Shown here: positions 1-17,971 of the stretch, piece by piece
Position numbering within the stretch: the stretch's first letter is position 1
How the letters are laid out: the number at the start of each line of letters is the position of its first letter
DNA from: a virus
DNA: 20,327 nucleotides
Direction: 5' to 3' (one strand)
IMG/VR virus record: IMGVR_UViG_3300031759_000178
Coordinates: 1-20,327 of that record
Notes under the pieces: generated by a model
Seen by the model: the letters and a program-made list of their open reading frames with translations, nothing else
The model's database searches: none
What the model was told of the DNA's origin: nothing
Made by a program: the position numbers and the translations under genes

Positions 1-1931
1 AAGCCTGAAAAATCACCTGCTTGACCTTTTAAAGTCTTCATGTAGTTATCAATCAGATCTTTTTGAGTCATTGGGCCAGATTTGGCAGAAACCAAACTCT
101 GATACTGTTTAGCAAACTCCGGATCTTTCATGGCTTGCACCAATTGAATTTCTGGAGTAACACCATAGTGCGCACTCAAAGCTTTTTGGTATGCTTCTTC
201 AGACGCAATCTTACGTTCTTCAAGCGCTTGCTTTTTGGCTTCCTGTTCTTGACGCAACGCGCCAATACCCGCTTCACCCAAGTTTTGTAAAGCGTAGGGG
301 GACTTACCGGCCATCAGCCCAAGACCCATGTTCAACAAGAAGTCATTCCAGTCACGACCACCTTTGGCGTTTGGTGTATCTGTAACAGTCTTAGCAATAT
401 CGTTTGTGGAAGGGGCAGTGGGAGTTGATGGTGCGTTTTGTGTTACGCCCGACCAAAGAGTATCGCTGCCTGCATCTTCTGGGCCATAAGCATATTGCGC
501 TTTGCGCAAATCAGTATTGTCTGAAGCTTCCAATGGTTGATTGAGAGGTTTTACCAAATTATTTGGAGAAACCGCAACGTTTTGTTTGTTTTGGTTAGGC
601 GCGCTTACAATAGCTTTTGGTATCGTAACCAACGCATTTTTCATCTGTTCTGCATAAGGCATATTAGATGGACCTTCGGGATTGTTGGCGGCAGCGTCTG
701 TAATAGCGCTTGCCAATCCAACGTCCCCACTCATCATGCTAAGCATAGGGTTGTTAGCCAATTCGTTGCGTTGGTCGGGTGGCAAATAGCCCAAATTGTT
801 CATGGCATTTTTAGAAGCAGCCAAGCCTCCAGCAAGAACGCTAGAAGGCACCAAACCCGCCAAACCAATGCGCCCCAAAGCTTCACTCAACGTTGTTCCG
901 GGTTTAAATTGCGGCGCGAATAGCGCTTCATGTGCAAGTCGAGCAATAGGTTCTGAAATAGCCACGCCCATAGGAACATTACCTGCTGACATTAAAGCGG
1001 CTTTGCCAAGAGTGTCAATTTTTTCTAAACTTTGAGGTTGCGTTTGTGCAGGCGCTTGTGCAGGAGCCTGTACAGGGGGTGTTGTTTTAGCCTCCGCTGT
1101 CGATAAAGGCAAATAATCATTTAGCTTTTTTAAATAATCCGCCGCTTCTATTTTATGGGGGCCTTCGAAATTTGAAGGTACCAACTGTCCATTATTTGCT
1201 TTTAAATGGTCGTTCAAAAACGGCTCACCTTGGTTGTATGCAACGGCCATTTTTTGAATATCGCCATTGTATTTTCCTTGCAAGTCTTTCATAAATGCAA
1301 GTGAAGCGTCGATATTTTTAAACCCGTTTGTGCGTTCTTCTGGCTTTAGACCATAGCCTTTGGATGTATCCGCAGCAAGTTGCCCAATCCCAACGGGCCC
1401 AGTTTTAGATTTAGCGTTGGGGTTATACCCAGATTCGTTGTGAAAAATAGTGTCAACAAACTCAGGCGGCAGTCCCATTTTTTGCGCTTGTTGAATTGCA
1501 TACCGTCTGTACACATCTGGGGAGTATGTTGTACCCCCGCTGTCATACCCAGTGATGCCGCCTTCTTTCATACCTTTGAGATTGTTGGCAGGCAAAGCGC
1601 CAATGCCGTGCTCCTCGGGCAACTTAGTGGCTTGCTGTTCAGGTTCAGGAGCTTGCTCCATAGAACCAGCGCCTTGTAAGGGAATACCCGTAGGCATGTT
1701 GGGCGCCTGTGGAGGAGCCATCTGCGCCAAATCTTGTTGAACAACAGGAGGTTTAGCTTGCCCAGCTTGCTGCGCCATTGCTTCAGCACGCATCTGTTTG
1801 CGGTCTTGGCTTTCTTGAAACGCCAAAGGAAAAATGTATGGGTCGTTCTGATGCATTGCAGCGTACTGCTGCAACTCTTGATCCGGCATCATCCGGAGTT
1901 TAGAACTGATTTGTTGTGGTGCAATAGACAT
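1..1931 (-). CDS. Virion-associated lytic transglycosylase (SLT-domain) protein, partial
   Basis: The frame is open from an ATG at 1931 to the left edge, giving 643 residues with no stop, so the C-terminus is missing. The ATG overlaps the TAA of the upstream gene as TAATG. A Gln/Pro/Met-rich N-terminus (about 1-130) leads into a soluble-lytic-transglycosylase-like domain at about residues 136-245. This carries the hallmark HNESGYNPNA with the presumed catalytic Glu166, then GPVGIGQL and VAYNQGE. Beyond it is a long Pro/Gln/Ala/Asn-rich region, then a charged, helix-prone Glu/Lys/Gln segment near residues 545-585. SLT enzymes cleave the peptidoglycan glycan strand. In phage particles they open the cell wall locally during DNA ejection. 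The position at the end of the large virion genes fits that role. The domain call is firm. The role as an ejected internal protein is inferred. Confidence 0.85.
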   Translation of the reverse strand, partial: MSIAPQQISSKLRMMPDQELQQYAAMHQNDPYIFPLAFQESQDRKQMRAEAMAQQAGQAKPPVVQQDLAQMAPPQAPNMPTGIPLQGAGSMEQAPEPEQQATKLPEEHGIGALPANNLKGMKEGGITGYDSGGTTYSPDVYRRYAIQQAQKMGLPPEFVDTIFHNESGYNPNAKSKTGPVGIGQLAADTSKGYGLKPEERTNGFKNIDASLAFMKDLQGKYNGDIQKMAVAYNQGEPFLNDHLKANNGQLVPSNFEGPHKIEAADYLKKLNDYLPLSTAEAKTTPPVQAPAQAPAQTQPQSLEKIDTLGKAALMSAGNVPMGVAISEPIARLAHEALFAPQFKPGTTLSEALGRIGLAGLVPSSVLAGGLAASKNAMNNLGYLPPDQRNELANNPMLSMMSGDVGLASAITDAAANNPEGPSNMPYAEQMKNALVTIPKAIVSAPNQNKQNVAVSPNNLVKPLNQPLEASDNTDLRKAQYAYGPEDAGSDTLWSGVTQNAPSTPTAPSTNDIAKTVTDTPNAKGGRDWNDFLLNMGLGLMAGKSPYALQNLGEAGIGALRQEQEAKKQALEERKIASEEAYQKALSAHYGVTPEIQLVQAMKDPEFAKQYQSLVSAKSGPMTQKDLIDNYMKTLKGQAGDFSG

Positions 1932-2992
1932 TATGCCCCCATCTTCGATAGAGCCAGATCCGCCAGCCCGTTTGATTTTCGTTTCTTTTCTTTAATTGGG
2001 CCGCCCTTGGCGGCTTTAAACGCGCCCAAACCTGCGGCAGTAAGCCCCACCCCGGCTACCTGAGACAGCATGCTTGGAGGCGCAGAATAGATATTGCTCG
2101 TGGTGTTCGTCATTGGCAGACCGCGCAACAAATTGGACATGTAGTTCAACTGATTGCCTTGATAGTTCTGCGCATTCATGAAACATTGGTACTGCTGATT
2201 GAGTACGTTCTGTGTCTGTTGTTGTTGCGTACCGCCCAACTGCGCTTGCAAACCTGTTATGCCAAGGTTTTGGTTGTACTGGTTGTTACCCAGAGTACCC
2301 AAAGTATTAGCTGATTGGTTGGCCAAATTAAGACCTTGAAGTCCGAGGTTGGCGCCAAACTGGCCTTGTTGTGCATTGAGGTTAGCCGCAGCTTGGCATG
2401 CAGCTTGTTGAGCCGTAAATGCTTTCTGTGCGTTGCAGTATGCTGTGTTGTAGGCGTTGCCAACCAAGTTGGCTTGTGCCAGTTGATTGGCTTGATTTTG
2501 AGCACCGGTCAACACTGCACAACGTGCACCGCCAAAGGCGCCATAGCCTACGGCTTGAGCTTGGTTTTGAGCTTGTTGCGTGCCTTGTTGTTGACGCATC
2601 AATGCAAGTTGGGGAGCCAACGCGCACTGCAAATAAGGGTTCATGTAAGAGCTAACATTGCTCTTACCCGTGGCTGCATTTGTACCCAGCGCTTGCTGAG
2701 CGCTATACGGGTTGTATGTGTAGCCTGTGTTGATTCCACCAAGACCCGCTTCTCCAGCAAGCGCAGTTGCGCACTTTAATTGTGGAGCGCCTTGCATCAA
2801 GGCGGCGTTTTGGAATGCTTGTTGTTGCAGTGGTGTGAACTGCGCTACTGTGCAACCTTGATATTGCAAATAGGGATTTTGGGTAGTACAAGTGTACGCC
2901 GCAGCTTGACCCAGCATTTGCTCGACGTATGGCGCCGCATAGCAAGGTATCGTTGTTTGCGTTATATTTGTTTGGGTAGGGCCGCAAGCCAT
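1931..2992 (-). CDS. Gln/Ala/Asn-rich virion protein
   Basis: 353 residues. The ATG at 2992 has an AAGGA Shine-Dalgarno (SD) sequence that overlaps the TAA of the preceding gene. The protein is very rich in Gln, Ala and Asn, with motifs such as YMNPYLQ, GAFGGAR and YMSNLLRGLPMT. I recognise these from conserved structural proteins of uncultured phages. The middle should be long helix with heptad-like QAQ/NQA spacing. The C-terminus has a short hydrophobic Gly/Ala stretch (VAGVGLTAAGLGAF) followed by a basic tail, KEKKRKS. It contains 10 cysteines, many for such a composition. It sits between the 814-residue protein and the transglycosylase gene, a place where short-tailed phages keep internal or ejection proteins. 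The exact function is unknown, and a core or ejection protein is the leading guess. Confidence 0.75.
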   Translation of the reverse strand: MACGPTQTNITQTTIPCYAAPYVEQMLGQAAAYTCTTQNPYLQYQGCTVAQFTPLQQQAFQNAALMQGAPQLKCATALAGEAGLGGINTGYTYNPYSAQQALGTNAATGKSNVSSYMNPYLQCALAPQLALMRQQQGTQQAQNQAQAVGYGAFGGARCAVLTGAQNQANQLAQANLVGNAYNTAYCNAQKAFTAQQAACQAAANLNAQQGQFGANLGLQGLNLANQSANTLGTLGNNQYNQNLGITGLQAQLGGTQQQQTQNVLNQQYQCFMNAQNYQGNQLNYMSNLLRGLPMTNTTSNIYSAPPSMLSQVAGVGLTAAGLGAFKAAKGGPIKEKKRKSNGLADLALSKMGA

Positions 2993-3002
2993 GATTTATT
3001 CC

Positions 3003-5447
3003 TTATGCTGGAAGATATTGATGTGCATTGGTGTTGGTCGCTACTGCGTCCTTACCAGTTGTTTTACGGCGCGCAGTTTGAATGCGATCCATCATCTTAT
3101 AAAGTTGTCTAGCACCCGCTTCAGTGGATCCATTGCCAAGCTCAGAAACGATCCGAGCAGGAACCACAAACTCACCGTCAGCAAGGCGAGCAGGTTCAGG
3201 GTCACTAGAACCAATAGTAGCAGGGATCGAATCAGAGACGCCGTCGCCCGGGCCTCGTAACAAACGTCCACCATCTGAGTATCCTCCTAAATGACCCACA
3301 GTCATTCCGCCTCCGGCCAGACCCATCAGGCCACCATGCGCTGCTTTTGTTGTTGATCCAAAGGCGCTGCCATCAGCGTTGTACTTATTGCCATCTGCAC
3401 CCAAATAAGAGCCATCAGATTGAGGCATAGCAATAATACCGTTGGGCAGTTTATATCCCACATTCTTAGGCGCCATGCCAACGGCTTGGAAGTATGGCAA
3501 CGCCACAGTTCCTTTTGGCCCTCTGGGCTGGGTTGTTTTACCCATCAAGAAATCATACGCCGCTTGTGAACCACCAGTCAGAGTGTTGTACTCTTGATTG
3601 AATTGATCCATTGATGTGGGCGCTGGGTTTGTATATCCCAAACTTCCGCCGCCTTGTGTATACGCGTTGGTCAAACTGGTCATGCCAGTAAAGCCACCTT
3701 TGGGAATGCCGGGAAGAACGGGAGATTCTGTAATCGTTCCGTTGGGATTGACAACAGTTCCGCCACCAAAAATACCCGCGCCAGTATTGCCACTAACGCC
3801 GGGCATCAACGTAGTTGCAGGCGTGTTTTGAATTGCGTTGGGTGCGTATGTGGCAGGGTTAGAGTACGATGGATTACGGGCGCAGCTTGCATATCTTGCC
3901 GCACAACAAATAGCACCACCGCCATAACCACCACCGCCTCCACCAGTACCCGTATTTGTTAAAGTTTGTGTTTGAGTAGGTTGCAGCCCAAGTTTAATGC
4001 CAGCCAAAGCCAACTCATTTTGGTTAAAGCTGGGGAACAAATTGCTCAAGTCTTGCGATGTCAAGCCATACTGAGTTGCCAATTTCTGCGCAGTGCCGTA
4101 ATCGCCTGTTTGCCAAGCATTGTACATTTGGTTAATGGCAGGAAGACTTAAGTTTGTAGCTGCAATTTGTGCGTTGGCTGCGGTTGTTGAACCGGGCAAT
4201 GTGATTCCTGCGGCAGTTAAAGCTGCTGGATTGTATGCAGAACCATAAAGCGCAGCAGCATCTGTACCTGTCAAGCCATACAAATTGGCCATGTTTTGCA
4301 CAGAGGAATAGTCTTTTGCGTTGTATGCGTTGGCAATCTGTTCTGACTCAGCTTGAGTCAAATTGGTTCCTTGGTAACCCGGATTGTTGTACGACTGAGC
4401 AGCATTGGCCGCGACAGCCGCAGGTAAAACATCTTGCCCCGCCAGTGAAATACCTTGGCCAGCTAAAACTGATTGGTCAAAAGTTGGCGCATACTTAGAC
4501 ACATCCGCAGAAGTCACACCATACTGGTTGACCAAATTCTGGGCCTGTGCATAGTTACCGGCTTGATACGCGGCATCAACGGCATCAAGCTGTGCTTGTG
4601 TAGGAGCCACACCGGGATCAGTTGAACCACCCGCATCAAAGCGGCGTACGGAACCCCCACGAGCCAAAGCCACGAGACCGCCAGTAGCCCCGTAATTAGC
4701 CGCAGTTACAGGGCCTGTGAATTGGTTAGCAGGTGTTATAGGCCCAGCCGTCATCTGCCCTGTGTAGGGGTTGTAACTATATTGTCTGATATTGCCGGGA
4801 TTAACTTTAGGCGGATTGATTTTTTGTGGGGTAGCCATAGCTTTGAGCGCAGTCAAGCCCACAGCGCCTGTGATAAATGGGTGCTCAGAAGCATAGGTTT
4901 TTAAGCCTTGCCAAGAAAAGTCTTGTGGGATAGCTGAACTAATAGCACTAGAAACAGTGCCTGTGTTTGTGGCTGCGGCGGGTATAGAAGTGCCCACACC
5001 TTCGCCTGCGCCAGAAGGCAGAGCGCCAGAAAAGTCTCCCACTTGACTGTTGGGAAACAAAGAAGAATATTGCTGTTGAAGCGCGCCATTACTGACATCC
5101 GCAGCGGGGGTATACGCAGGAGCCGCAGGCACTCCCGAGCCACTCAACATGTTTTCTGCACCAGCTCCACCATACGCGGAGAGCCCTGCCAAAAGACCTT
5201 GGCCCAAATTGCCTGAAGCCAAAGCGGAGATACCACCAACAGTTGCACCGGCCCCTATACCAGCAGCAGCGCCTTCGCCAGCGCCCAAATAACTACCAAC
5301 AGTCCCCATTGTTTCAGGAGCAAACGCCATCAAAGCTGCGCCAGCCAAAGCATCCACTAAAGGATTTTTAGATAAGTTAGAAACGCCTTTACCGAGGTTG
5401 CTAATGCCCCCGGATATATTTGCTATTGGGTTGTCAAAGAAGCTCAT
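3003..5447 (-). CDS. Large low-complexity virion protein with three internal repeats
   Basis: 814 residues. The start at 5447 has a GGAG SD about 6 nt upstream. Residues 1-100 are Gly/Ala-rich and hydrophobic (ALAGAALMAF, GAGEGAAAGIGAGATVGG), suggesting membrane-interacting helices. Residues 284-488 hold three diverged copies of a 75-80-residue unit with the pattern AYxAGxYxxAQNLxxQYGxTxxD. A Gly run at 502-511 precedes a Cys cluster, AICCAARYASC. The C-terminus (738-790) carries GPGDGVSDSIPA, LADGEFVVPARIVSELGNGS and AGARQLYKMMDRIQ. I recall this block from many metagenomic phage structural proteins. The gene lies between the short tail gene at 5806 and the 353-residue virion protein. It may act as an internal or ejection protein, or as a tape-measure equivalent. 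The protein family is recognisable, but the role is inferred. Confidence 0.75.
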   Translation of the reverse strand: MSFFDNPIANISGGISNLGKGVSNLSKNPLVDALAGAALMAFAPETMGTVGSYLGAGEGAAAGIGAGATVGGISALASGNLGQGLLAGLSAYGGAGAENMLSGSGVPAAPAYTPAADVSNGALQQQYSSLFPNSQVGDFSGALPSGAGEGVGTSIPAAATNTGTVSSAISSAIPQDFSWQGLKTYASEHPFITGAVGLTALKAMATPQKINPPKVNPGNIRQYSYNPYTGQMTAGPITPANQFTGPVTAANYGATGGLVALARGGSVRRFDAGGSTDPGVAPTQAQLDAVDAAYQAGNYAQAQNLVNQYGVTSADVSKYAPTFDQSVLAGQGISLAGQDVLPAAVAANAAQSYNNPGYQGTNLTQAESEQIANAYNAKDYSSVQNMANLYGLTGTDAAALYGSAYNPAALTAAGITLPGSTTAANAQIAATNLSLPAINQMYNAWQTGDYGTAQKLATQYGLTSQDLSNLFPSFNQNELALAGIKLGLQPTQTQTLTNTGTGGGGGGYGGGAICCAARYASCARNPSYSNPATYAPNAIQNTPATTLMPGVSGNTGAGIFGGGTVVNPNGTITESPVLPGIPKGGFTGMTSLTNAYTQGGGSLGYTNPAPTSMDQFNQEYNTLTGGSQAAYDFLMGKTTQPRGPKGTVALPYFQAVGMAPKNVGYKLPNGIIAMPQSDGSYLGADGNKYNADGSAFGSTTKAAHGGLMGLAGGGMTVGHLGGYSDGGRLLRGPGDGVSDSIPATIGSSDPEPARLADGEFVVPARIVSELGNGSTEAGARQLYKMMDRIQTARRKTTGKDAVATNTNAHQYLPA
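3984..4598 (-). repeat. Three diverged 75-80-residue repeats in the 814-residue protein
   Basis: Residues about 284-335, 364-417 and 434-488 share a register: a helix with xAYxxGDYxxAQxLxxQYG, then [VL]T[SG]xD, then an aromatic or Pro-containing turn, then LAxxGIxL. The copies are clear at protein level but well diverged in DNA, so the duplication is old. Confidence 0.7.
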
Positions 5448-7933: not shown

Positions 7934-8530
7934 TTAAGCGCCCAGAACGGCAAGCGCGTGTTGAGTCAGTTTAATGCGTTCCTCAAGACCAAATGTACCA
8001 CCATTTATGCGTTTTGTTAAGCCCTCCCAGTTCTCGGCTTCGGCCAAATCATTGCATCCGTGGGTTTTCCAAAACCACCCGGCGGATAGTGCGGCGTACA
8101 TGGGGGTAGCCACGAGTTGTGGTTCGGCAACAAGATCTTTGCCTACGGCTTGCCCAAAGTGCCAGTAGTTGTCGTGCCCGGTCAACTGTATACATCCACG
8201 CCCGTGGAATCTCCAGCCATCTCCGCTCTCTTCCCCCCTGTTTCCCATTCGGCTGGCGTATATCCGATTGGCAATCTTTTGGGGATTGTGGGCGTAAACG
8301 GCAAACTCGTCTGGTTTAAACTTGTGACCAAACAGCTTTTGAAGGGTTTCTGCTCGATAGTTGAGGTTTTCTTCCAGTGTTTTGAAATGGTCGCACTCGT
8401 GTGAACATTGTCCAATAAACGCAGCTTGGCGCTTAACATCGTTGATTCCAAACGTGGCAAAGGTTGTGGTCAAAGGTTCAGACCACTCAGGCCCAATCCC
8501 CAGCGTGTGCAGCTTTTCAGGGCTTAACAT
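7934..8530 (-). CDS. GH19 chitinase-like endolysin
   Basis: 198 residues. It shows the phage GH19 (chitinase-fold lysozyme) pattern: AAFIGQCSHECDHF with the presumed catalytic acid Glu45, LEENLNYRAETL with the likely second catalytic Glu54, then ANRIYASRMGNRGEESGDGWRFHGRG and CIQLTGHDNYWHF. Enzymes of this type hydrolyse the glycan backbone of peptidoglycan to release progeny. There is no signal peptide, so it would need a holin or another way through the membrane. The length is normal for a single-domain enzyme. The start at 8530 (GGGAG SD) overlaps the end of the spanin gene by 14 bp, completing a spanin-endolysin lysis cassette. The call is strong on sequence motifs. Confidence 0.92.
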   Translation of the reverse strand: MLSPEKLHTLGIGPEWSEPLTTTFATFGINDVKRQAAFIGQCSHECDHFKTLEENLNYRAETLQKLFGHKFKPDEFAVYAHNPQKIANRIYASRMGNRGEESGDGWRFHGRGCIQLTGHDNYWHFGQAVGKDLVAEPQLVATPMYAALSAGWFWKTHGCNDLAEAENWEGLTKRINGGTFGLEERIKLTQHALAVLGA

Positions 8531-9092
8531 TGATTGTCTCCCTTACTTGGTTGTAGGTGGCAATGCAGGCGTTGAGTTGGGTGATGGCGGCGTCTCCGTC
8601 TGCTGCGATGGCTGCAATATCTTTAATAGCCTGTTTAGTAGCGTCGGATCCATCGGCTTGATCTCCTCTGGAAGCGGTGGTACTTGAACTGGTTTGTACA
8701 CTACAGGTGGAGGGGAGGCGCAGCTCGCCAGAGTCAATGCGAGCGCTAATACTAAACTGCTTTGCTTTAATGTCATTTTTAGCCTGCTTCAGTTGGCTGG
8801 TGGCTCTTGCGAGCTTTGTGTTGAGCTCGGCTTCTTTGGCGCGAGCTTCGCCATTGAGTCGGTCAATTTCTGCTTGATCTTCTGCAACGCGTCTTTGATA
8901 ACCGTGATGATCTGAGACATAGAAACCTCCTAGTAAAACCAACACCAATCCCACAACCTTCATGATGAGGGCGTGGGGCTTTAACATAGGGATAAACCCT
9001 ACAAGATAACTTAAAACGTACGCGGTAGTACCGACACCCAGCGCGGCCAAGGCCAGCCAATACATGATGTCACCAAACAACCAACCGATCAT
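8517..9092 (-). CDS. Rz-like inner-membrane spanin (i-spanin)
   Basis: 191 residues. Two hydrophobic segments (about 11-33 and 41-59) precede a charged coiled-coil-like region (about 65-110, RRVAEDQAEIDRLNGEARAK) and the Rz-family signature FSISARIDSGELRLPSTC. Rz proteins are anchored in the inner membrane and span the periplasm to contact an outer-membrane lipoprotein, fusing the two membranes at lysis. The classic protein has one N-terminal membrane segment, so two is unusual. The ATG at 9092 overlaps the upstream stop as ATGA. A complete o-spanin frame is embedded inside it, and the endolysin gene overlaps its end. The C-terminal about 50 residues (DAAITQLNACIATYNQVRE) form a further helix. 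Confidence 0.85.
   Translation of the reverse strand: MIGWLFGDIMYWLALAALGVGTTAYVLSYLVGFIPMLKPHALIMKVVGLVLVLLGGFYVSDHHGYQRRVAEDQAEIDRLNGEARAKEAELNTKLARATSQLKQAKNDIKAKQFSISARIDSGELRLPSTCSVQTSSSTTASRGDQADGSDATKQAIKDIAAIAADGDAAITQLNACIATYNQVRETINVKP
8543..8776 (-). CDS. Rz1-like outer-membrane spanin lipoprotein (o-spanin), embedded in Rz
   Basis: 77 residues, read in a different frame wholly inside the i-spanin gene. It starts MTLKQSSLVLALALTLASC with a clear lipobox L-A-S-C at residues 16-19, so the mature protein starts at Cys19 and is about 59 residues. The mature part is Pro-rich (ASPPPVVYKPVQVPPLPEE and SPNSTPALPP), as expected for Rz1-type o-spanins. These sit in the outer membrane and pair with Rz across the periplasm. 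The nested architecture is the same as in lambda Rz/Rz1. The SD is weak (AGG about 7 nt upstream). The signal peptide, lipobox, proline content and position together make this convincing rather than a chance frame. Confidence 0.88.
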   Translation of the reverse strand: MTLKQSSLVLALALTLASCASPPPVVYKPVQVPPLPEEIKPMDPTLLNRLLKILQPSQQTETPPSPNSTPALPPTTK

Positions 9093-10779: not shown

Positions 10780-11011
10780 GTTTAACTCCGAGAGTTGCGG
10801 TTGAGGTTTCTTTATCTATGGTCAAAAAGCCATAGCAGCATATATTCCAGTCTGCGCCACTGGGGTCAAGCTCACTAAAGCAAGGCACGTTGATGCGCAC
10901 ATTTTTAAAGAGATATTCTTTATCGCCTTCAAAGACACGCCATACGTGATCTACAGTGCCACGTCCTTCCATGCCTCTAGATTTATTAAATCTAATTCTG
11001 TACTTGTTCAT
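10706..11011 (-). CDS. Conserved phage protein with NKYRIRFNKSRG start
   Basis: 101 residues. The ATG at 11011 overlaps the oxygenase-like gene's TGA as ATGA. Residues 1-75 (NKYRIRFNKSRGMEGRGTVDHVWRV.., FKNVRINVP, DWNICCYGFLTID) match a small conserved protein I recall in T4-like and other aquatic phages. Its function is unknown. WNICC..G...ID suggests a compact beta fold with a paired Cys. Residues 78-101 (HGNKKLDRRSSKEQRC..) lie entirely over the next gene in another frame and look like a read-on tail rather than a conserved domain. The ATGA coupling suggests co-translation with the upstream oxygenase-like gene. Confidence 0.75.
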   Translation of the reverse strand: MNKYRIRFNKSRGMEGRGTVDHVWRVFEGDKEYLFKNVRINVPCFSELDPSGADWNICCYGFLTIDKETSTATLGVKHGNKKLDRRSSKEQRCVAPSPQSA

Positions 11012-11691
11012 ACAATCTCCGCTGCTGGAGGAACCGCACACACAGGTTGTTGCGCCAACTGAACAGTCAAATTGAAGTGAACAAACTTCATGGGTTTATT
11101 GGCAGCATGGCGGCCAAAAGAATGAGGCAACCAAGAATTTGCAAAGATCAAAAGTCCGGGTTTTGGATTGAAGTGAATGGCGTTACTGGCTGGCGTTACC
11201 ATAGACATATTGGCTTCCATGAGGTTACTCTGCACTTTTCCTGCACGGGGATCGTGGAAAATAACTTGTGAGCTTTTATCAGGTACTTCGAGGAAGTAAA
11301 ACCCAATCAACTGTGCGCCAAACCCGTGTACATGCTGCTCCATCAAAGAGTGCTTGTGGTGTTCTTGCGTCCACATTGATTCAAAAACAGTGGCTAAATT
11401 GTCCATTGCATAGCCCTGAGACTGCAATATGTTCCAAGCCGTAGAACCCACATACGAAGAGAATTCAGTCATGCGTGCATCAGTGAACAGATTGTCCGTC
11501 ATGACGACTGGGAAAATAGGATCTATTTTCTTTTGCGCTTTCTGTATTTTCAAACGCTCTTCTGACACATCTTTTACCGTCTGAAGAAACTCAGGTTTCT
11601 CAATGGTATAGATTAAAGATGGAAAATACGTCCATGTGCCCAGTTGATTTTCAACTGGGGTTTCTAACTCTGTTTGCGTTCCGTCTGGCAT
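11008..11691 (-). CDS. 2OG-Fe(II) oxygenase-like protein (PF13759-like)
   Basis: 227 residues. The ATG at 11691 has a strong SD (AGGAG, 11698-11702). After an N-terminal region (LGTWTYFPSLIYTIEKPEF), the second half follows the jelly-roll pattern of phage putative 2OG-Fe(II) oxygenases. It shows EQHVHGFGAQLIGFYFLEVP, VIFHDPR, GLLIFANSWLPHSFGRH and MKFVHFNLTV. Candidate iron ligands are His120/His122 and the distal His190. The acidic ligand is unclear (Asp147 is one option), and the 2OG-binding basic residue may be Lys202 where relatives often have Arg. Such enzymes hydroxylate proteins or small molecules using 2-oxoglutarate and O2. The substrate is unknown. The gene follows the adhesin genes and precedes small conserved genes. 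The fold is likely; activity is not shown. Confidence 0.72.
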   Translation of the reverse strand: MPDGTQTELETPVENQLGTWTYFPSLIYTIEKPEFLQTVKDVSEERLKIQKAQKKIDPIFPVVMTDNLFTDARMTEFSSYVGSTAWNILQSQGYAMDNLATVFESMWTQEHHKHSLMEQHVHGFGAQLIGFYFLEVPDKSSQVIFHDPRAGKVQSNLMEANMSMVTPASNAIHFNPKPGLLIFANSWLPHSFGRHAANKPMKFVHFNLTVQLAQQPVCAVPPAAEIV

Positions 11692-11730: not shown

Positions 11731-12000
11731 TCAAGACTTAGGAGTTATGGCGGCAATTTGTGCTTGTAAAGCAGTTAACTGCGCTAGAAGTTGTTCAGGC
11801 GTTGGTTGAACCACCGTTGCTTGAACTTCAACAGGCGCAGTAAAAATACCATTTGCATAGGAATAACCAATACCTGCAATTGTATTTTCTATGTTGATAG
11901 CCTCATAACCAGCGGGACAAGTCCAATCAGGGCCGCCATCCCACATGACAGTGTTATCAACAATGTTTGTTTTTGTGTTCACTAAAGCGTATTTGTACAT
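11731..12000 (-). CDS. Small conserved protein, possible fibre-assembly factor
   Basis: 89 residues from the ATG at 12000 (MYKYALVNTKTNIVDN). An alternative ATG at 12012 lacks an SD, whereas 12000 has GGTGA about 6 nt upstream and matches the start I recall in relatives. Residues 1-55 form a likely beta module (NTVMWDGG, WTCPAGYEAI, IGYSYANGIFTAP). The C-terminus PTPEQLLAQLTALQAQIAAI is a predicted coiled-coil helix. This layout, right after a fibre or adhesin gene, resembles short tail-fibre-assembly or chaperone-like proteins of aquatic phages. That role is inferred. The TGA of the Gly-rich gene at 12006 lies just upstream. Confidence 0.7.
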   Translation of the reverse strand: MYKYALVNTKTNIVDNTVMWDGGPDWTCPAGYEAINIENTIAGIGYSYANGIFTAPVEVQATVVQPTPEQLLAQLTALQAQIAAITPKS

Positions 12001-12005
12001 ATTAA

Positions 12006-13226
12006 TCACCATGAGTAAACTTTTAGACCGCCATTACCACCTGCTCCACCAGCGCCTGAATTTCCTCCACCAGCGGCCGCTCCACCTCCACCTCCGCCAC
12101 CACCATAAGCACTACCAGCGCCACCATTCCCAACAAAAGCACAGCCAGCGGCTCCACCACCGCCTCCTTGCCCCGATCCCGTATAAGTATTAACGGAACC
12201 AGCAGTACCATTTTGGGATCCGCAAACATTAAGGCCTCCTGCGGCACCTAAAGCACATATATTTCCAACTTGATATGCATTAGATACTCCACCTCTTGAT
12301 CCACCAGAATACGAACTAGCGCCATAGCGACTTCCTCCTGCACCGCCTCCACCAGCGCCATAAATAGATCCGCCGCCTCCAAAACAGGAACTAGATACAA
12401 TACATTTAAGTCTACTAAAATTACCAGCGCCCCCACCCCATTCCGCACTTCCAGTAGCGTTACAACAAACACAAGCATTTGCCCCAGCGCCACCACCGCC
12501 TACTGCGCATACAATACTACTTGCGCTAGTTACACTAATACTCCGTTGAAATGGTTTTCCTACAGCACAACCACTACCAGCACTACCTGTACCTCCGCCA
12601 GGCCCACCATGCTTGATTGCGTTACCATTTCCACCAAAACCAAAAGAACCACCGTATGCTTTCAGATAATTTCCAAAAGATGTAGTTCCGCCAGAAGTAC
12701 CATTAAAACCGCAATTTGTTGAAGTTCTAGAAGCCCCACCACTACCACCAGAACCAATCGTAACGGTTACAGTTGATGGCAAACAAGCGGCAACAAACAT
12801 TTGTCTTACCCTTGCACCCCCGCCACCACCAGTTCCTCCGCCAATACAATTACTTGTTCCTTTACGACCAGATCCACCGCCACCACCAGCACCCCATGCA
12901 CAAACCATCACAAACGTAACGCCTGCTGGTTTAGTCCAAGTACCTGATGAAGTGAAAGTTTGAGAGTTAGCAGTAGATCCAGATACACAAGCCCAAGTCG
13001 GGGCTGATGCACCGTTAGACTTTAAATATTGGCCAGAAGTACCGGCAGAAGTAGTCGCCAAAGCACCACCAGAACCGTAAGCAACACCACCAGTTGTTGG
13101 GGTTGATGTCGATCCAGTTCCTCCATTACCTACTGGTAAAGTACCACTCACACCAGTCGTCAATGAGACTTGTCCTGATGTATTCAGATTGTCGGCAAAT
13201 GCGCCTAGATTACGAGGTTGTGTCAT
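12006..13226 (-). CDS. Glycine-rich, cysteine-containing adhesin/tail-fibre protein (406 aa)
   Basis: Residues 1-80 are a fibre module (VSGTLPVGNGGTGSTSTPTTG, then SGQYLKSNGASAPTW). Residues about 83-115 (FTSSGTWTKPAGVTFVMVCAWGAG) are a common lead-in to phage Gly-rich domains. The remaining about 290 residues are mostly Gly/Ser/Ala with repeated GGGG, GGAGG and GGNGG runs. They include 13 of the protein's 15 cysteines, one cluster being NACVCCNATG. Gly runs of this type form polyglycine-II sandwiches in phage adhesins such as S16 gp38, where they present variable loops to the host surface. The start at 13226 has an AAGGA SD that overlaps the TAA of the previous gene. The adhesin role is inferred from composition and position. 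Confidence 0.75.
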   Translation of the reverse strand: MTQPRNLGAFADNLNTSGQVSLTTGVSGTLPVGNGGTGSTSTPTTGGVAYGSGGALATTSAGTSGQYLKSNGASAPTWACVSGSTANSQTFTSSGTWTKPAGVTFVMVCAWGAGGGGGSGRKGTSNCIGGGTGGGGGARVRQMFVAACLPSTVTVTIGSGGSGGASRTSTNCGFNGTSGGTTSFGNYLKAYGGSFGFGGNGNAIKHGGPGGGTGSAGSGCAVGKPFQRSISVTSASSIVCAVGGGGAGANACVCCNATGSAEWGGGAGNFSRLKCIVSSSCFGGGGSIYGAGGGGAGGSRYGASSYSGGSRGGVSNAYQVGNICALGAAGGLNVCGSQNGTAGSVNTYTGSGQGGGGGAAGCAFVGNGGAGSAYGGGGGGGGAAAGGGNSGAGGAGGNGGLKVYSW

Positions 13227-13235
13227 TGTGTTTCC

Positions 13236-13640
13236 TTATGTTCTGGGAATTTCTACCCAAGTTTTAGTAGGCTCATCCCACGCATAAATTGTAGGTGGTG
13301 TTGTTGTGCTTGTTGGCATTTGTGTTGGAGCAGTCCAAGTCCATGTAGGCGCTGAAATTGTCCAGCTTTCACATAATACACCGTTACGATCTTGAGGTCT
13401 TGGGGCATAAAACACATCATGTGTTGAATCATAAACATAACCTATGCCAGCATAATTTCCACGTAAAGCGATGCCACCGTCAGGTTTTTTGTCTTGACCA
13501 TAATGAACACCACCAACAGTATTATAGGATGTCTGAACCCATTCAGATGCAGGGCCAAGGGCACCACTATTAATAAAATCTTGTTCGGCAACAATAACTT
13601 GTGTAACTATTCCATTTATAACTTTTGCAAAATGACTCAT
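13236..13640 (-). CDS. Conserved MSHFAKV-type fibre-associated protein
   Basis: 134 residues from the ATG at 13640, chosen over a TTG at 13652 because GAGGTT sits at good SD distance and the family begins MSHFAKV. Motifs are VNGIVTQVIVAEQDFI-like, SEWVQTSYNTVGGVHYG, GGIALRGNYAGIGYVYD and a Trp/Pro/Thr-rich C-terminus (SAPTWTWTAPTQMP, WDEPTKTWVEI). Proteins of this pattern are common near tail-fibre genes in cyanophages and other aquatic phages. Their role is not established, and a fibre component is the usual suggestion. It lies between the two glycine-rich genes, consistent with that. Confidence 0.78.
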   Translation of the reverse strand: MSHFAKVINGIVTQVIVAEQDFINSGALGPASEWVQTSYNTVGGVHYGQDKKPDGGIALRGNYAGIGYVYDSTHDVFYAPRPQDRNGVLCESWTISAPTWTWTAPTQMPTSTTTPPTIYAWDEPTKTWVEIPRT

Positions 13641-13648
13641 TTTTAACC

Positions 13649-14527
13649 TCAAAATTTAATAGTTCCAGAACCAGTGAATTTATAAACTTTTTTGCCACCT
13701 ACACAAGTTGGCCCTGTATAAGTTCCAGTAACTGTTGATGCAACAGCACACGCAGAAATAATCACAATGCCTGATCCACCGGCAGAACCTTTTGTGCAAC
13801 ATCCACAAGAACGTGAAACACCGCCTCCACCGCCACCTGTGTTTGGTGAACCATTAAACCAACAATTATTACTTCCTGCACCGCCACCGCCGTTGCCACC
13901 ACCGCCAAAAGAACTTCCAGTACCACCACCACCACCGCCATAATATGTAGATGTTCCTGTTATAGATGATGCTTTACCTGATCCACCAAATCCAGCAGAA
14001 CCTCCTGAGCCATTTCCACCAACTGCTCCTGCGCCGCCACCTCCACCGCCTACATAGTAACCACAACATGGAGCAGCGTATCCGCTTCCACCATGAAAGC
14101 CTTGCCCAGAAATACCAAAACCATAAGCAGATAATCTACCTGGATATCCAGCAGCACCGCCGCCTGATCCACCACAATTTCCAGCTGCACTTGAATTGTT
14201 ATAAGCACCGCCTCCACCACCAGTTGTACTTATAGAAACGCTGCATCCAGAAATAGATGATGAAGACCCATTAAAACCATTTCCATGTGTGCAAGCGGCT
14301 CGATTAGCTCCTCCAGCACCAACTGTCATTGTGTAAGTTATGCATTTGATAAAACATATTGATCCACAAAGCACCCCCCCAGCACCGCCACCACCAGCTT
14401 GGCCTCCTTTTCCACCTCCAGCTCCCCCCGCAACTAAAAGATAAGATGCTGTAATAAGTTTTGCACCACCACTACCAAAACCAAATGCTTTTGCTGAAGC
14501 CGCACCTCTAGTAATAATCGTTGGCAT
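13649..14527 (-). CDS. Glycine-rich, cysteine-containing adhesin-like protein (292 aa)
   Basis: A short N-terminus (MPTIITRGAASAKAFGFGSGGAK) is followed by YLLVAGGAGGGKGG, the typical entry into Gly-rich phage domains. After it come long stretches of GGGGG-type runs broken by Ser/Asn/Tyr. The C-terminus (GSAGGSGIVIIS, then VYKFTGSGTIKF) is the conserved end of such modules. Fourteen Cys are spread through it, including CC pairs (APCCGYY and SCGCC). A polyglycine-II adhesin fold, as in S16 gp38, is plausible, with variable loops meeting the host receptor. The start at 14527 has AAGGGG about 8 nt upstream. It is like the 406-residue protein in composition, but I do not see a close DNA-level copy. 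Confidence 0.75.
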   Translation of the reverse strand: MPTIITRGAASAKAFGFGSGGAKLITASYLLVAGGAGGGKGGQAGGGGAGGVLCGSICFIKCITYTMTVGAGGANRAACTHGNGFNGSSSSISGCSVSISTTGGGGGAYNNSSAAGNCGGSGGGAAGYPGRLSAYGFGISGQGFHGGSGYAAPCCGYYVGGGGGGAGAVGGNGSGGSAGFGGSGKASSITGTSTYYGGGGGGTGSSFGGGGNGGGGAGSNNCWFNGSPNTGGGGGGVSRSCGCCTKGSAGGSGIVIISACAVASTVTGTYTGPTCVGGKKVYKFTGSGTIKF

Positions 14528-14537
14528 TAATTACCCC

Positions 14538-15914
14538 TTAAAACTGTGTTTGTGATGCTAAAACAGTGTATGTTGCACTTCCAGTTTTAATAACTGTATA
14601 AGTGTAAACATCAATACCACTTGCGTTTCCTTTTGTTGGAGCACTTCCACTTTGCCAATAAGGTGTTACTGATGTTCCATCAATGGTTACTGCTGAATTG
14701 TAATAAGCAGTAGAACCTTGCGTTGCTAACATAGCAATGGTCATTGATTGTCCAGTTGACATTGCTGAATTAAGTGATGTTCCAGAACTAAATGCAATGT
14801 TTAATGTCCAATTGTTTGCAGCATTGGATGTGTAATACTGAACCGATCCACTTTGAACATAAAAGTTAGTTGTACTAGATGGTGCTGACCCAACGACATT
14901 AACAGTTTCAGCAACATTTAACATCACTGCACTAAATGTGCTCGATGAGCCATTAAATGTTTGAGTTGCAGTCCATGTTTGGGCTGAACTCAATGATGGA
15001 TAAGACAATGTTGACCAAGTAGGAGCACTTGTACCATTGCTTGTCAAAACCTGACCTGTTGTACCTACTGCTGTAAAGCTAGTAGCACCTGAGCCTGATT
15101 GGTAAACAACTTCACCTGCAGAACCACCAGCAATGTTAGTTGAAGAAGATGCAGTTCCTAATGATGTGACACTATAAGCAATTGTTTCAAGAATATCACC
15201 CGAATTAGCACCAACTGCCAAAACGATGGATGTTCCACTGGTAGCAGTGTAATCAGTACCATTTAACAGAACACCATTAAGGTAAACTTCAACATAACCA
15301 ACTGTATAAGTTACTGAAAATGTGGTTTGTGATGCCGTTGCCGTAAAACTTGTACGAGTGTATGTAGAGCCTGTTCCAGCCGCATTGATTGTTACTGCGC
15401 CTGTTCCACCAGAAGGACTGATTGTGATATTGCTACCAGCAATAATTTGAGACACGCCAGAAACAATTGGGTATGTGCTGACTTTAATAACATCCGTTGC
15501 AGTAATAGAGTCGTAGTACACATACGCTCTCTCACTTGGAGCAATGGTAACTCCTGTGCCACCAGATTTTTTAACGGTGAAACTGTACCCGCCAGTGGCG
15601 TTATTTACAATCAAATAAATCTTACTTGAAGCCGGAACAATAATGTTTCTATTTGCCGTTCTTGCGCCTGTTAAATTTAAAACCGCATACTGCGCAACTG
15701 TTGAATTCGAACCAGTTGTTGAAAATGTCGAAGAGTTGTTTCCATTAGTAACTGACAATGTGATGTCAGAATCTTGCGTGATATTATTTGTACCAGCAAC
15801 AGAAATATCTACGAGTTGTGTAAATCCGTTATTTACATCATCGCCCCAAACACCACTTTCAGAACCTGTGGTTGGCTGGTTTAAACCCAATAGCGTCGTA
15901 TTTGCGTAAGTCAT
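14538..15914 (-). CDS. Tail fibre protein
   Basis: 458 residues. The start at 15914 has a GAGG SD about 6 nt upstream. The N-terminus (MTYANTTLLGLNQPTTGSES, GVWGDDVNNGFTQLVD) is a virion-attachment-like segment seen in many aquatic phage fibres. Next is a beta-rich block (about 45-150) and a module at about 184-252 (FTATASQTTFSVTYTVGYVE, VYLNGVLLNGTDYTATSGTS) found in many fibre proteins. Then comes a module at 267-300 (GEVVYQSGSG, TTGQVLTSNGTSAPTW) that also occurs in the 406-residue protein. The C-terminal about 150 residues are Ser/Thr/Asn-rich beta structure and likely the distal or receptor-facing part. There is no enzymatic motif. The role is structural and host recognition. Confidence 0.8.
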   Translation of the reverse strand: MTYANTTLLGLNQPTTGSESGVWGDDVNNGFTQLVDISVAGTNNITQDSDITLSVTNGNNSSTFSTTGSNSTVAQYAVLNLTGARTANRNIIVPASSKIYLIVNNATGGYSFTVKKSGGTGVTIAPSERAYVYYDSITATDVIKVSTYPIVSGVSQIIAGSNITISPSGGTGAVTINAAGTGSTYTRTSFTATASQTTFSVTYTVGYVEVYLNGVLLNGTDYTATSGTSIVLAVGANSGDILETIAYSVTSLGTASSSTNIAGGSAGEVVYQSGSGATSFTAVGTTGQVLTSNGTSAPTWSTLSYPSLSSAQTWTATQTFNGSSSTFSAVMLNVAETVNVVGSAPSSTTNFYVQSGSVQYYTSNAANNWTLNIAFSSGTSLNSAMSTGQSMTIAMLATQGSTAYYNSAVTIDGTSVTPYWQSGSAPTKGNASGIDVYTYTVIKTGSATYTVLASQTQF

Positions 15915-16837: not shown

Positions 16838-16850
16838 CACCTATTAGGTG
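16838..16850 (-). promoter_or_regulatory. Small hairpin over a stop codon and Shine-Dalgarno
   Basis: The minus-strand RNA reads CACCU-AAU-AGGUG followed by AUUUAUG. The 5-bp perfect stem holds the TAA of the 159-residue gene in its loop region and sequesters the AGGUG SD of the next gene. A ribosome terminating there would open it, giving translational coupling. The stem is short, so it could be chance. Confidence 0.3.
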
Positions 16851-17323
16851 GTAGACAAGCGCAACAAAGCTGTACTTGTTGTGTTTGAAGGCATGGTCAA
16901 AGTAAACGTACCAGCAGTAATTGTCTGTGCGCCAAATGTGTGAACGCTAACAGCTTTGTTAGACTGAGTTGAGTTGTACAACAAAACTGTATCAAAAGCT
17001 GTAGAAATGGTCACTGTGGAATACACAATCGAAGCTGAAGGCGTCCAGTATCCAACACCCGCAGTTGCAGAACTGTTGGTAGAAGTTGGGTTGGTTGCAT
17101 TGGTTACAGTCACACCACCTGCGGTGTAATTTGTACCAGTTACTTCGCCAGTCGCTGTATAAGCTGTGGTGGCTGCATTGATCGTGGCAGTTGTAAAATA
17201 CAAAGCTGCTTTGAATGTGTCAGCGGTGTTGGCTGTGTGTGCAGGATTAGCTGAGCTGAAGTTGTGCGTTGCGCTCAACAGTTCGCCCAAGAAAGAAGTG
17301 CACATTGATTGAGTATTTGCCAT
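16844..17323 (-). CDS. Conserved virion protein, paralogue A
   Basis: 159 residues. The start at 17323 has an AAGGA SD about 7 nt upstream. It begins MANTQSMCTSFLGELLSATH and continues with DTFKAALYFTTATINAATTAY, TGEVTGTNYTAGGVTVTN and ISTAFDTVLLYNSTQSNKAV, ending in a beta-strand-rich FTLTMPSNTTSTALLRLS. It is Thr/Ala/Asn-rich with no enzymatic motif. Proteins of this type sit in head-tail or fibre regions of many environmental phages. A minor capsid or decoration role is plausible, but unproven. It shares clear motifs with the protein at 17528-17971, so the two probably arose by duplication. Confidence 0.75.
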   Translation of the reverse strand: MANTQSMCTSFLGELLSATHNFSSANPAHTANTADTFKAALYFTTATINAATTAYTATGEVTGTNYTAGGVTVTNATNPTSTNSSATAGVGYWTPSASIVYSTVTISTAFDTVLLYNSTQSNKAVSVHTFGAQTITAGTFTLTMPSNTTSTALLRLSTT

Positions 17324-17333
17324 GATGTTTCCT

Positions 17334-17528
17334 TTAAGCCAATGAAGCGGCGATTAAGTCCATGAAAGGGGAGGTTTTTAACGTGACATGTGCGGAGCGA
17401 TGAACCAATTCGTCATCCAACCAATACTCAACCCATGTGGTTAACTCGATGTCGTTATCAACGGTGCCTTCTTTCTTTACCAGAAGAGACTCGTCCATAT
17501 CGCCTTTAGTCGTTGTAATCAATGCCAT
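17334..17528 (-). CDS. Small conserved acidic protein
   Basis: 64 residues from the ATG at 17528, which overlaps the preceding TAA as TAATG. An earlier in-frame ATG at 17597 lies inside the previous gene and is not favoured. The sequence MALITTTKGDMDESLLVKKE, then ELTTWVEYWLDDELVHRSAH, follows a pattern I recognise (TTKGxMDExLLxKxEGxVDND and WVEYWLxxELVHRSxHVxLK) from many aquatic phage genomes. Its function is unknown. It lies between two paralogous virion genes and is translationally coupled to one of them. Confidence 0.78.
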   Translation of the reverse strand: MALITTTKGDMDESLLVKKEGTVDNDIELTTWVEYWLDDELVHRSAHVTLKTSPFMDLIAASLA

Positions 17529-17971
17529 TATGCGATCCTCAAAATTGCGTTGGTGTTTGTAGCTGCGGGGAACTGAATCGTAAATGTGCTGGTACAAGTT
17601 TTATCTGAACCAAAATCCAAAACAGCCACTGAAGCATTATTTTGACTTGCATTGTAGATCAGAGCACCGCGAGCTGTAAATGAGGCTGGACTCCAAACTA
17701 CATTGGCAAAAGACCAGTAAGCCACAGTGCCGCCAGTAGCCCCAGACGTAGGGGTTGCAATAACAACCAAAGGTTGACCACCTTGTGTATAGCCAGTACC
17801 GGTAATTTCACCAACCAAAGCGGTCGAATATTGGGTTGTTGCGGCATTCAATGTGGCCGTAGAGTTGAACAACGCAATATAAAATGTGTTTGGGTTGGTT
17901 GGCCCAAAGTTGTGCAGCCCTTGAGCAAGCTGCACTTTGAAACTGGTCGTAGCGGTTTGAACTAGACTCAT
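17528..17971 (-). CDS. Conserved virion protein, paralogue B
   Basis: 147 residues. The ATG at 17971 overlaps the adaptor TGA as ATGA. MSLVQTATTSFKVQLAQGLH, FYIALFNSTATLNAATTQYS, GEITGTGYTQGGQPLVV, ARGALIYNASQNNASVAVLD and IQFPAATNTNAILRIA line up in order with the paralogue at 16844-17323. The shared parts are ALxxxTATxNAATTxY, GE[VI]TGTxYTxGG, LxYNxSQxN and FTLxxPxxTxxxxLLR-like segments. It is beta-rich with no catalytic motif. It is probably a neck, decoration or fibre-associated subunit. Position and duplication support a structural role. Confidence 0.75.
   Translation of the reverse strand: MSLVQTATTSFKVQLAQGLHNFGPTNPNTFYIALFNSTATLNAATTQYSTALVGEITGTGYTQGGQPLVVIATPTSGATGGTVAYWSFANVVWSPASFTARGALIYNASQNNASVAVLDFGSDKTCTSTFTIQFPAATNTNAILRIA

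Follow-up and report, generated by a model that had tools for sequence, protein, structure and literature searches.

Glycine-rich proteins at the tips of phage tails and fibers are the nearest described counterparts of two Cys-rich polyglycine genes that we analyzed, together with a linked 2-oxoglutarate (2OG)-Fe(II) oxygenase gene, in a phage contig of 20,327 bases from IMG/VR (record IMGVR_UViG_3300031759_000178; this whole stretch is called the window). Gp33 of mycobacteriophage Bxb1, the "tail wing brush" (PDB 9d93), resembles the products of these genes in predicted fold, in its sequence kinship to what we call type A below and in its tail-tip place, but it has a single Cys within the stretch that aligns with the type-A profile. 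According to excerpts of the account of cyanophage Pam3 (PMC9608196), gp24 (PDB 7yfw and 7ypx) has the same TNF-like domain, glycine-rich lattice and hypervariable distal tip; it differs in its N-terminal helical shaft, and the paper's text contains neither the word cysteine nor the word disulfide. Gp38 of Salmonella phage S16, in the excerpted description (PMC6851490), also carries glycine-rich motifs at the fiber tip with hypervariable segments between them but builds a three-layer polyglycine lattice on a beta helix. The extracellular region of the animal receptors ALK and LTK shows a weakly matching TNF-like plus glycine-rich arrangement, and the LTK stretch aligned to the type-A profile does contain Cys. 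Disulfides have been described before in a phage tail, that of Agrobacterium phage Milano, although the proteins are different and the abstract (PMC10811340) speaks of cross-links in all tail components, sheath included.

The two genes of the window lie on the minus strand, at 13649 to 14527 (292 amino acids [aa]; type C, ...GSGIVII...) and 12006 to 13226 (406 aa; type A, TWTKPAGV...KVYSW). Their coordinates and lengths, their Cys counts (14 and 15, respectively) and the CVCC, CC and CGCC motifs were all given correctly by an earlier reading made from the letters alone (the sequence-only reading). The CVCC motif occupies residues 252 to 255 of the 406-aa protein (12462 to 12473, minus strand), while the 292-aa protein has CGCC at residues 241 to 244 (13796 to 13807, minus strand) and CC at residues 154 and 155 (14063 to 14068, minus strand). 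The 292-aa protein is 34% Gly and has 14 Lys/Arg with no Asp and no Glu; the 406-aa protein is 30% Gly, with 17 Lys/Arg, one Asp and one Glu. Only C80 of the latter precedes the glycine-rich domain, the other 14 Cys lying inside it. Three contigs (the window, L003/L010 and L004/L011) carry the same protein pair at 100% identity, so that the Cys richness cannot be put down to an assembly slip.

Both proteins are members of the Gly_rich_2 family (PF21722; cutoff, 24.3 bits), with 38.7 bits (1.4e-9) for the 406-aa protein, which also matches phrog_863 ("tail fiber assembly"; 3e-20), and 69.4 bits (5.9e-19) for the 292-aa protein, which also matches phrog_2295 (8e-32). An AlphaFold2 model of the 292-aa protein built with 47 kin reached a mean predicted local distance difference test (pLDDT) score of 91.6 and a predicted template modeling (pTM) score of 0.89. 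In VIA-align comparisons, it was closest to Bxb1 gp33 (Z 14.1, 2.9 Å over 169 residues) and the Pam3 fiber (Z 12.8, 2.8 Å over 168 residues), followed after the phage proteins by ALK/LTK chains (Z 5 to 6); with Z scores of 12.8 to 14.1, the model has a TNF-like sandwich and polyglycine lattice of the Pam3 gp24/Bxb1 gp33 type. The model of the 406-aa protein commanded less confidence (pLDDT 74, with weak stretches ahead of residue 80 and over residues 215 to 238), but Foldseek still matched it to Bxb1 gp33 (5.5e-9) and the Pam3 fiber (3.4e-6), and the type-A sequence profile matched Bxb1 gp33 at 1.4e-11. These models and matches bear out the polyglycine adhesin fold that the sequence-only reading had proposed. 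S16 gp38 (PDB 6F45) was not among the structural matches listed for the models, which excludes nothing, and tblastn of the whole adhesins against the named phages gave no matches, probably because the low-complexity filter masks the glycine runs. Because of the family membership, the tail PHROG of the 406-aa protein and the predicted fold match to Bxb1 gp33 and the Pam3 fiber, "tail-tip adhesin" is the best name for the two proteins; both probably are tail-tip adhesins, and a receptor role is predicted for them.

To place their Cys content, we compared them with glycine-rich kin retrieved from uncultured phage contigs by DNA patterns for the motifs, with no selection on Cys; this sample, which is not a census, also took in further relatives and matches from bacterial genomes, and it was cleared of duplicate loci and of contigs from the same species as the window before counting. 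Sorted by motif, it held 89 open reading frames (ORFs) of type A (TWTKPxG, as in the 406-aa protein), 195 of type B (SWVAPxxV...FPST) and 196 of type C (GSGIVII, as in the 292-aa protein), with another 131 glycine-rich ORFs fitting no type. The 406-aa protein ranked first of 89 in Cys content within type A and the 292-aa protein first of 196 within type C. The remaining window ORFs of 75 aa or longer have a Cys rate of 0.83%, from which 3.4 and 2.4 Cys would be expected in the two proteins, respectively (Poisson P = 3e-6 and 3e-7). The view that glycine-rich phage modules have few or no Cys held for most of the kin, the medians being 0.39% for type A and 0.36% for type C, but not universally: the type-B median was 1.72%, and 91 of the 195 type-B ORFs reached at least 2% Cys, compared with 6 of 89 in type A and 8 of 196 in type C. 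With such low medians in two of the three types, the fold does not ordinarily come with many Cys, yet Cys-rich forms arise repeatedly and independently in the three types. Searches of the open-license PMC literature turned up no description of polyglycine adhesins rich in Cys or of a link between them and 2OG oxygenases.

In type B, the Cys are concentrated where the domains vary. After type-B domains more than 80% identical were dropped (191 to 185), as was one domain outside 170 to 330 aa, 184 aligned domains showed hypervariable segments between conserved glycine frames, an arrangement that for type A was read from the alignment. Cys made up 6.1% of the non-Gly residues in the type-B segments (563 of 9,163) versus 2.0% in the frames (404 of 20,413), which agrees with the part of the earlier suggestion that placed Cys in variable loops. 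Close-set pairs were also overrepresented in type B, with 58 CC observed versus 22.6 ± 4.3 expected and 47 CxC versus 22.7. Four type-B adhesins (L226, L179, L216 and L290) have upstream repeats, which we take to be fibronectin-like, that also bear Cys at similar sites. All seven Cys-rich rows of type A group in a single clade (support, 98/93) and require one change on a tree of 40 rows. Among the 45 Cys columns of this clade, 2 (C109 and C148) are occupied in all seven rows, 2 in three rows, 10 in two and 31 in just one. At the C109 site the commonest residue of the 33 Cys-poor type-A kin is Glu (18 rows), and at the C148 site it is Asp (15 rows). The sequence-only reading had named Cys sites that are unconserved and pair in no model, or equally Cys-rich ordinary homologues, as observations that would tell against it; the sites are indeed mostly unconserved, but ordinary homologues are not equally rich in Cys.

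In type B, the gain of Cys goes along with a change in charge. Across the 185 type-B domains, Cys content correlated negatively with Asp plus Glu (rho −0.67) and positively with Lys plus Arg (rho +0.60), domains without Cys averaging 7.1 acidic and 6.4 basic residues and those with at least 10 Cys averaging 1.5 acidic and 10.9 basic residues. Acid depletion was seen in types A and B and in the window proteins, which are extreme in this respect (0 acidic and 14 basic residues in the 292-aa protein, 2 and 17, respectively, in the 406-aa protein).

Evidence that the Cys pair comes from their number. Of the 60 type-B domains having 8 or more Cys, 47 had an even count, against 57% under a smoothed null (p 5e-4), as did 19 of 25 in a second, replication set (p 0.038). 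In the window itself, both the 292-aa protein and the domain of the 406-aa protein have 14 Cys. This bias toward even numbers likely reflects disulfide pairing, for which it provides moderate support. The disulfides envisaged in the sequence-only reading thus draw support from type B and none from the window's own type-A clade. Specific partners were sought, and no column or segment pair accounted for the even bias in type B; just 2 of 378 column pairs passed Bonferroni correction, columns 33 and 34 (neighbors in one segment) and columns 7 and 39.

The oxygenase gene is the second gene past the 406-aa adhesin gene (11008 to 11691, minus strand; 227 aa). Its product scores 34.3 bits against PF13759, above the cutoff of 27 (3.2e-8), matches phrog_81 (1.7e-13) and falls below the cutoff of TIGR02466 (2.2e-10). 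Across 121 aligned rows, H122 is conserved in 100% and H190 and H205 in 99%; these His are suited to iron binding and are predicted to be iron ligands. Homologues of the oxygenase gene lie downstream of adhesin genes on the same strand at a median distance of 516 bp, and their presence tracks Cys content. In a strict count that took one type-B domain per locus and left out loci with too little downstream DNA, an oxygenase lay within 1.5 kb at 29 of the 40 loci having 8 or more Cys, at 19 of 31 with 3 to 7 and at 1 of 27 with 0 to 2 (p 7.5e-9). Taken apart, the two sample sets gave 17 of 24 Cys-rich versus 1 of 12 Cys-poor loci and 12 of 16 versus 0 of 15; a looser count gave 50 of 57 versus 5 of 36. 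Median Cys content was higher with an oxygenase than without in every group: 1.85 versus 0.35% in type A, 2.49 versus 0.38% in type B, 0.91 versus 0.23% in type C and 1.06 versus 0.43% in unclassified ORFs.

Homologues of the window oxygenase also occur in four named records, and in three of them (HTVC023P, HTVC033P and 023Pt_psg01) glycine-rich ORFs with 5 to 11 Cys stand just upstream of the oxygenase. The cultured Pelagibacter phages HTVC033P and HTVC023P are like the window in having type-C polyglycine ORFs (10 to 11 and 6 to 7 Cys, respectively) beside 2OG oxygenase genes; they differ in that Cys amounts to 1.2 to 1.8%, acidic residues are less depleted and the oxygenases are 28 to 31% identical to that of the window. 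In HTVC023P and HTVC033P (L616 and L617), the Cys-bearing polyglycine genes are followed by a pair of 2OG oxygenase genes as well as a ferrochelatase-like one. The glycine-rich ORFs of Synechococcus phage S-CREM1 have 0 to 1 Cys, and no such oxygenase is annotated in the 6.1 kb examined; close downstream of a glycine-rich ORF in this phage (L621) is an annotated tryptophan halogenase gene, another possible modifying enzyme.

In the direction of transcription, the genes of the window run from a 458-aa tail fiber-like ORF through the 292-aa polyglycine ORF, a 138-aa ORF, the 406-aa polyglycine ORF and a 93-aa ORF to the oxygenase. The 138-aa protein (13236 to 13652, minus strand; phrog_7759, 1.8e-21) is encoded immediately downstream of the 292-aa gene, and its family stands directly downstream of a glycine-rich ORF in 139 of 216 homologues. 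The 93-aa protein (11731 to 12012, minus strand; phrog_14370, 1e-5) is encoded immediately downstream of the 406-aa gene, and its family does so in 43 of 62 homologues. From their positions, both are candidate cognate chaperones or partners; in Pam3, as excerpts of the report have it, the chaperone gp25 binds the fiber gp24 (PMC9608196). The presence of a small gene of the 138-aa family does not rise with Cys.

Other features of the window were also observed. A linker in the 458-aa tail fiber-like protein (14934 to 15167, minus strand) resembles residues 33 to 105 of the 406-aa adhesin (49% identity). An adhesin-type composition recurs in another virion protein, a DNA ejection protein-like product of 353 aa (1931 to 2992, minus strand; phrog_4287) with 10 Cys (2.8%) and just 1.1% Asp plus Glu, and the sole three Cys of an 814-aa protein (3003 to 5447, minus strand) are clustered at residues 514, 515 and 522, adjoining a glycine run. 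An Rz-like spanin gene (8517 to 9092, minus strand) wholly encloses an Rz1-like lipoprotein gene in a different frame (8543 to 8776, minus strand), the pair coming after a GH19-like endolysin (7934 to 8530), and a phrog_644 protein is present in two copies (16844 to 17323 and 17528 to 17971, both minus strand) that flank an 87-aa ORF.

We put forward, tentatively and at somewhat less than an even chance, the following explanation for the whole. This uncultured tailed phage would encode two tail-tip adhesins, each a TNF-like beta sandwich with a projecting polyglycine-II lattice, in which the hypervariable segments between glycine runs may form the receptor-facing tip; the fold is predicted for the window proteins themselves, and the topology and tip role are carried over from Pam3 gp24 and S16 gp38. 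In several lineages, a known module appears to have become rich in Cys and, in many cases, cationic and poor in acidic residues; its Cys fall mainly in the hypervariable segments, and pairs of them would most likely pin the loops once the virion is released into oxidizing water. The genes of these adhesins come with a small downstream partner gene and, far more often than those of Cys-poor adhesins, with a gene for a 2OG-Fe(II) oxygenase, which may modify the adhesin after translation. Judging from linkage, such modification is probable, with the adhesin as its putative target. A more specific version, doubtful as it stands, is that the adhesin, small partner gene and oxygenase constitute a maturation cassette in which the enzyme would oxidize Cys or nearby residues of the tip, thereby tuning the receptor surface after translation; in its boldest form, oxidized Cys might substitute for the missing Asp and Glu, C109 for the Glu and C148 for the Asp of Cys-poor kin.

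A number of observations weigh against this explanation. Virion assembly takes place in the reducing cytoplasm. The threshold of 8 Cys was picked after the first set had been seen, although it was fixed before the second was fetched, and an initial null of 50% even counts had to be replaced since cutting a declining distribution at an even count by itself favors even numbers; the smoothed null weakened the signal but left it standing. The other ORFs of the same loci, those not rich in glycine, show a weaker even excess of their own (67 versus 58%, p 0.04), perhaps from metal-binding proteins, and the type-A group of the window (at least 6 Cys) shows no bias, with 5 even and 4 odd counts. Acid depletion was absent overall from the oxygenase-linked type-C and unclassified ORFs. 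The oxygenase association was unplanned, having been noticed while neighbors were being viewed; no oxygenase accompanies 6 of the 60 type-B domains that have 8 or more Cys on the locus sequence available (less than 2 kb of downstream DNA for 2 of these), and the fourth named record with an oxygenase homologue has no glycine-rich ORF nearby.

The association could also stem from a shared host or habitat. If phages of certain hosts or waters carried a 2OG oxygenase together with adhesins rich in Cys and poor in acids, the enzyme might act elsewhere, on host metabolism, DNA or the receptor, and never touch the adhesin; we regard this as possible, though on the unlikely side. It would fit the correlation of Cys content between adhesins of different types on one contig (rho 0.53, 99 pairs), the somewhat lower Asp plus Glu of non-glycine-rich ORFs on Cys-rich loci (7.8 versus 9.5%) and the excerpted literature, in which phage 2OG oxygenases are treated mainly as auxiliary metabolic genes (PMC9599517, PMC3037559 and PMC9602691). 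It accounts less readily for the short distance between oxygenase and adhesin, and the link persists among loci with one small downstream gene in common, with an oxygenase at 53 of 58 domains in the highest Cys class (8 or more), 47 of 58 in the middle class (3 to 7) and 6 of 41 in the lowest (0 to 2). Confounding by lineage was considered in addition: 840 of 1,081 locus pairs share a gene, but the one shared most broadly is a small gene often encoded after the adhesin. With genes within 1.5 kb of the glycine-rich ORF excluded, 26% of pairs among Cys-rich loci with an oxygenase share a gene, as do 21% of the pairs that these loci form with Cys-poor, oxygenase-free loci; since backbone sharing is so similar, the link between Cys and oxygenase is not accounted for by one phage lineage.

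Two further explanations concern the Cys themselves. They might remain free, as small neutral stand-ins for Asp, Thr, Asn or Ser on a permissive scaffold, with no cross-links; the drift of sites in the type-A clade, the odd counts found there and the Glu and Asp that Cys-poor kin have in place of C109 and C148 all point this way, but CC and CxC clustering and the survival of the type-B even bias under the corrected null make it improbable, as does a relative (G001) with 10 and 11 Cys in two glycine-rich ORFs and none in six other large ORFs (366 to 1,183 aa). A mutational leak from glycine codons by G-to-T change predicts more Trp, but Trp did not rise (1.6 versus 1.8% of non-Gly residues). 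Soft metal ions might instead be bound by the CVCC, CGCC and CC motifs and stiffen the tip, in keeping with the twofold or greater enrichment of close-set pairs in type B; yet aligned kin reveal no conserved four-ligand motif or conserved metal site among Cys positions, which vary between them, and His shows no strong increase alongside Cys (rho 0.16 in type B), so that we consider metal binding very unlikely.

Pinned loops on tail-tip adhesins linked to a putative modifying oxygenase thus remain our preferred explanation, and the sequence-only reading is partly supported, acid depletion and the linked oxygenase having lain outside its view. The adhesin is a variant of a known module, and the cassette is the part most worth attention. 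Were the maturation cassette real, some of the widespread phage 2OG oxygenases at present taken for metabolic genes would be adhesin-modifying enzymes; the tight link to one kind of adhesin supplies a concrete candidate substrate, and cultured pelagiphages exist. A polyglycine lattice bearing hypervariable loops pinned by Cys would, if real, be a further natural way to build variable binding tips.

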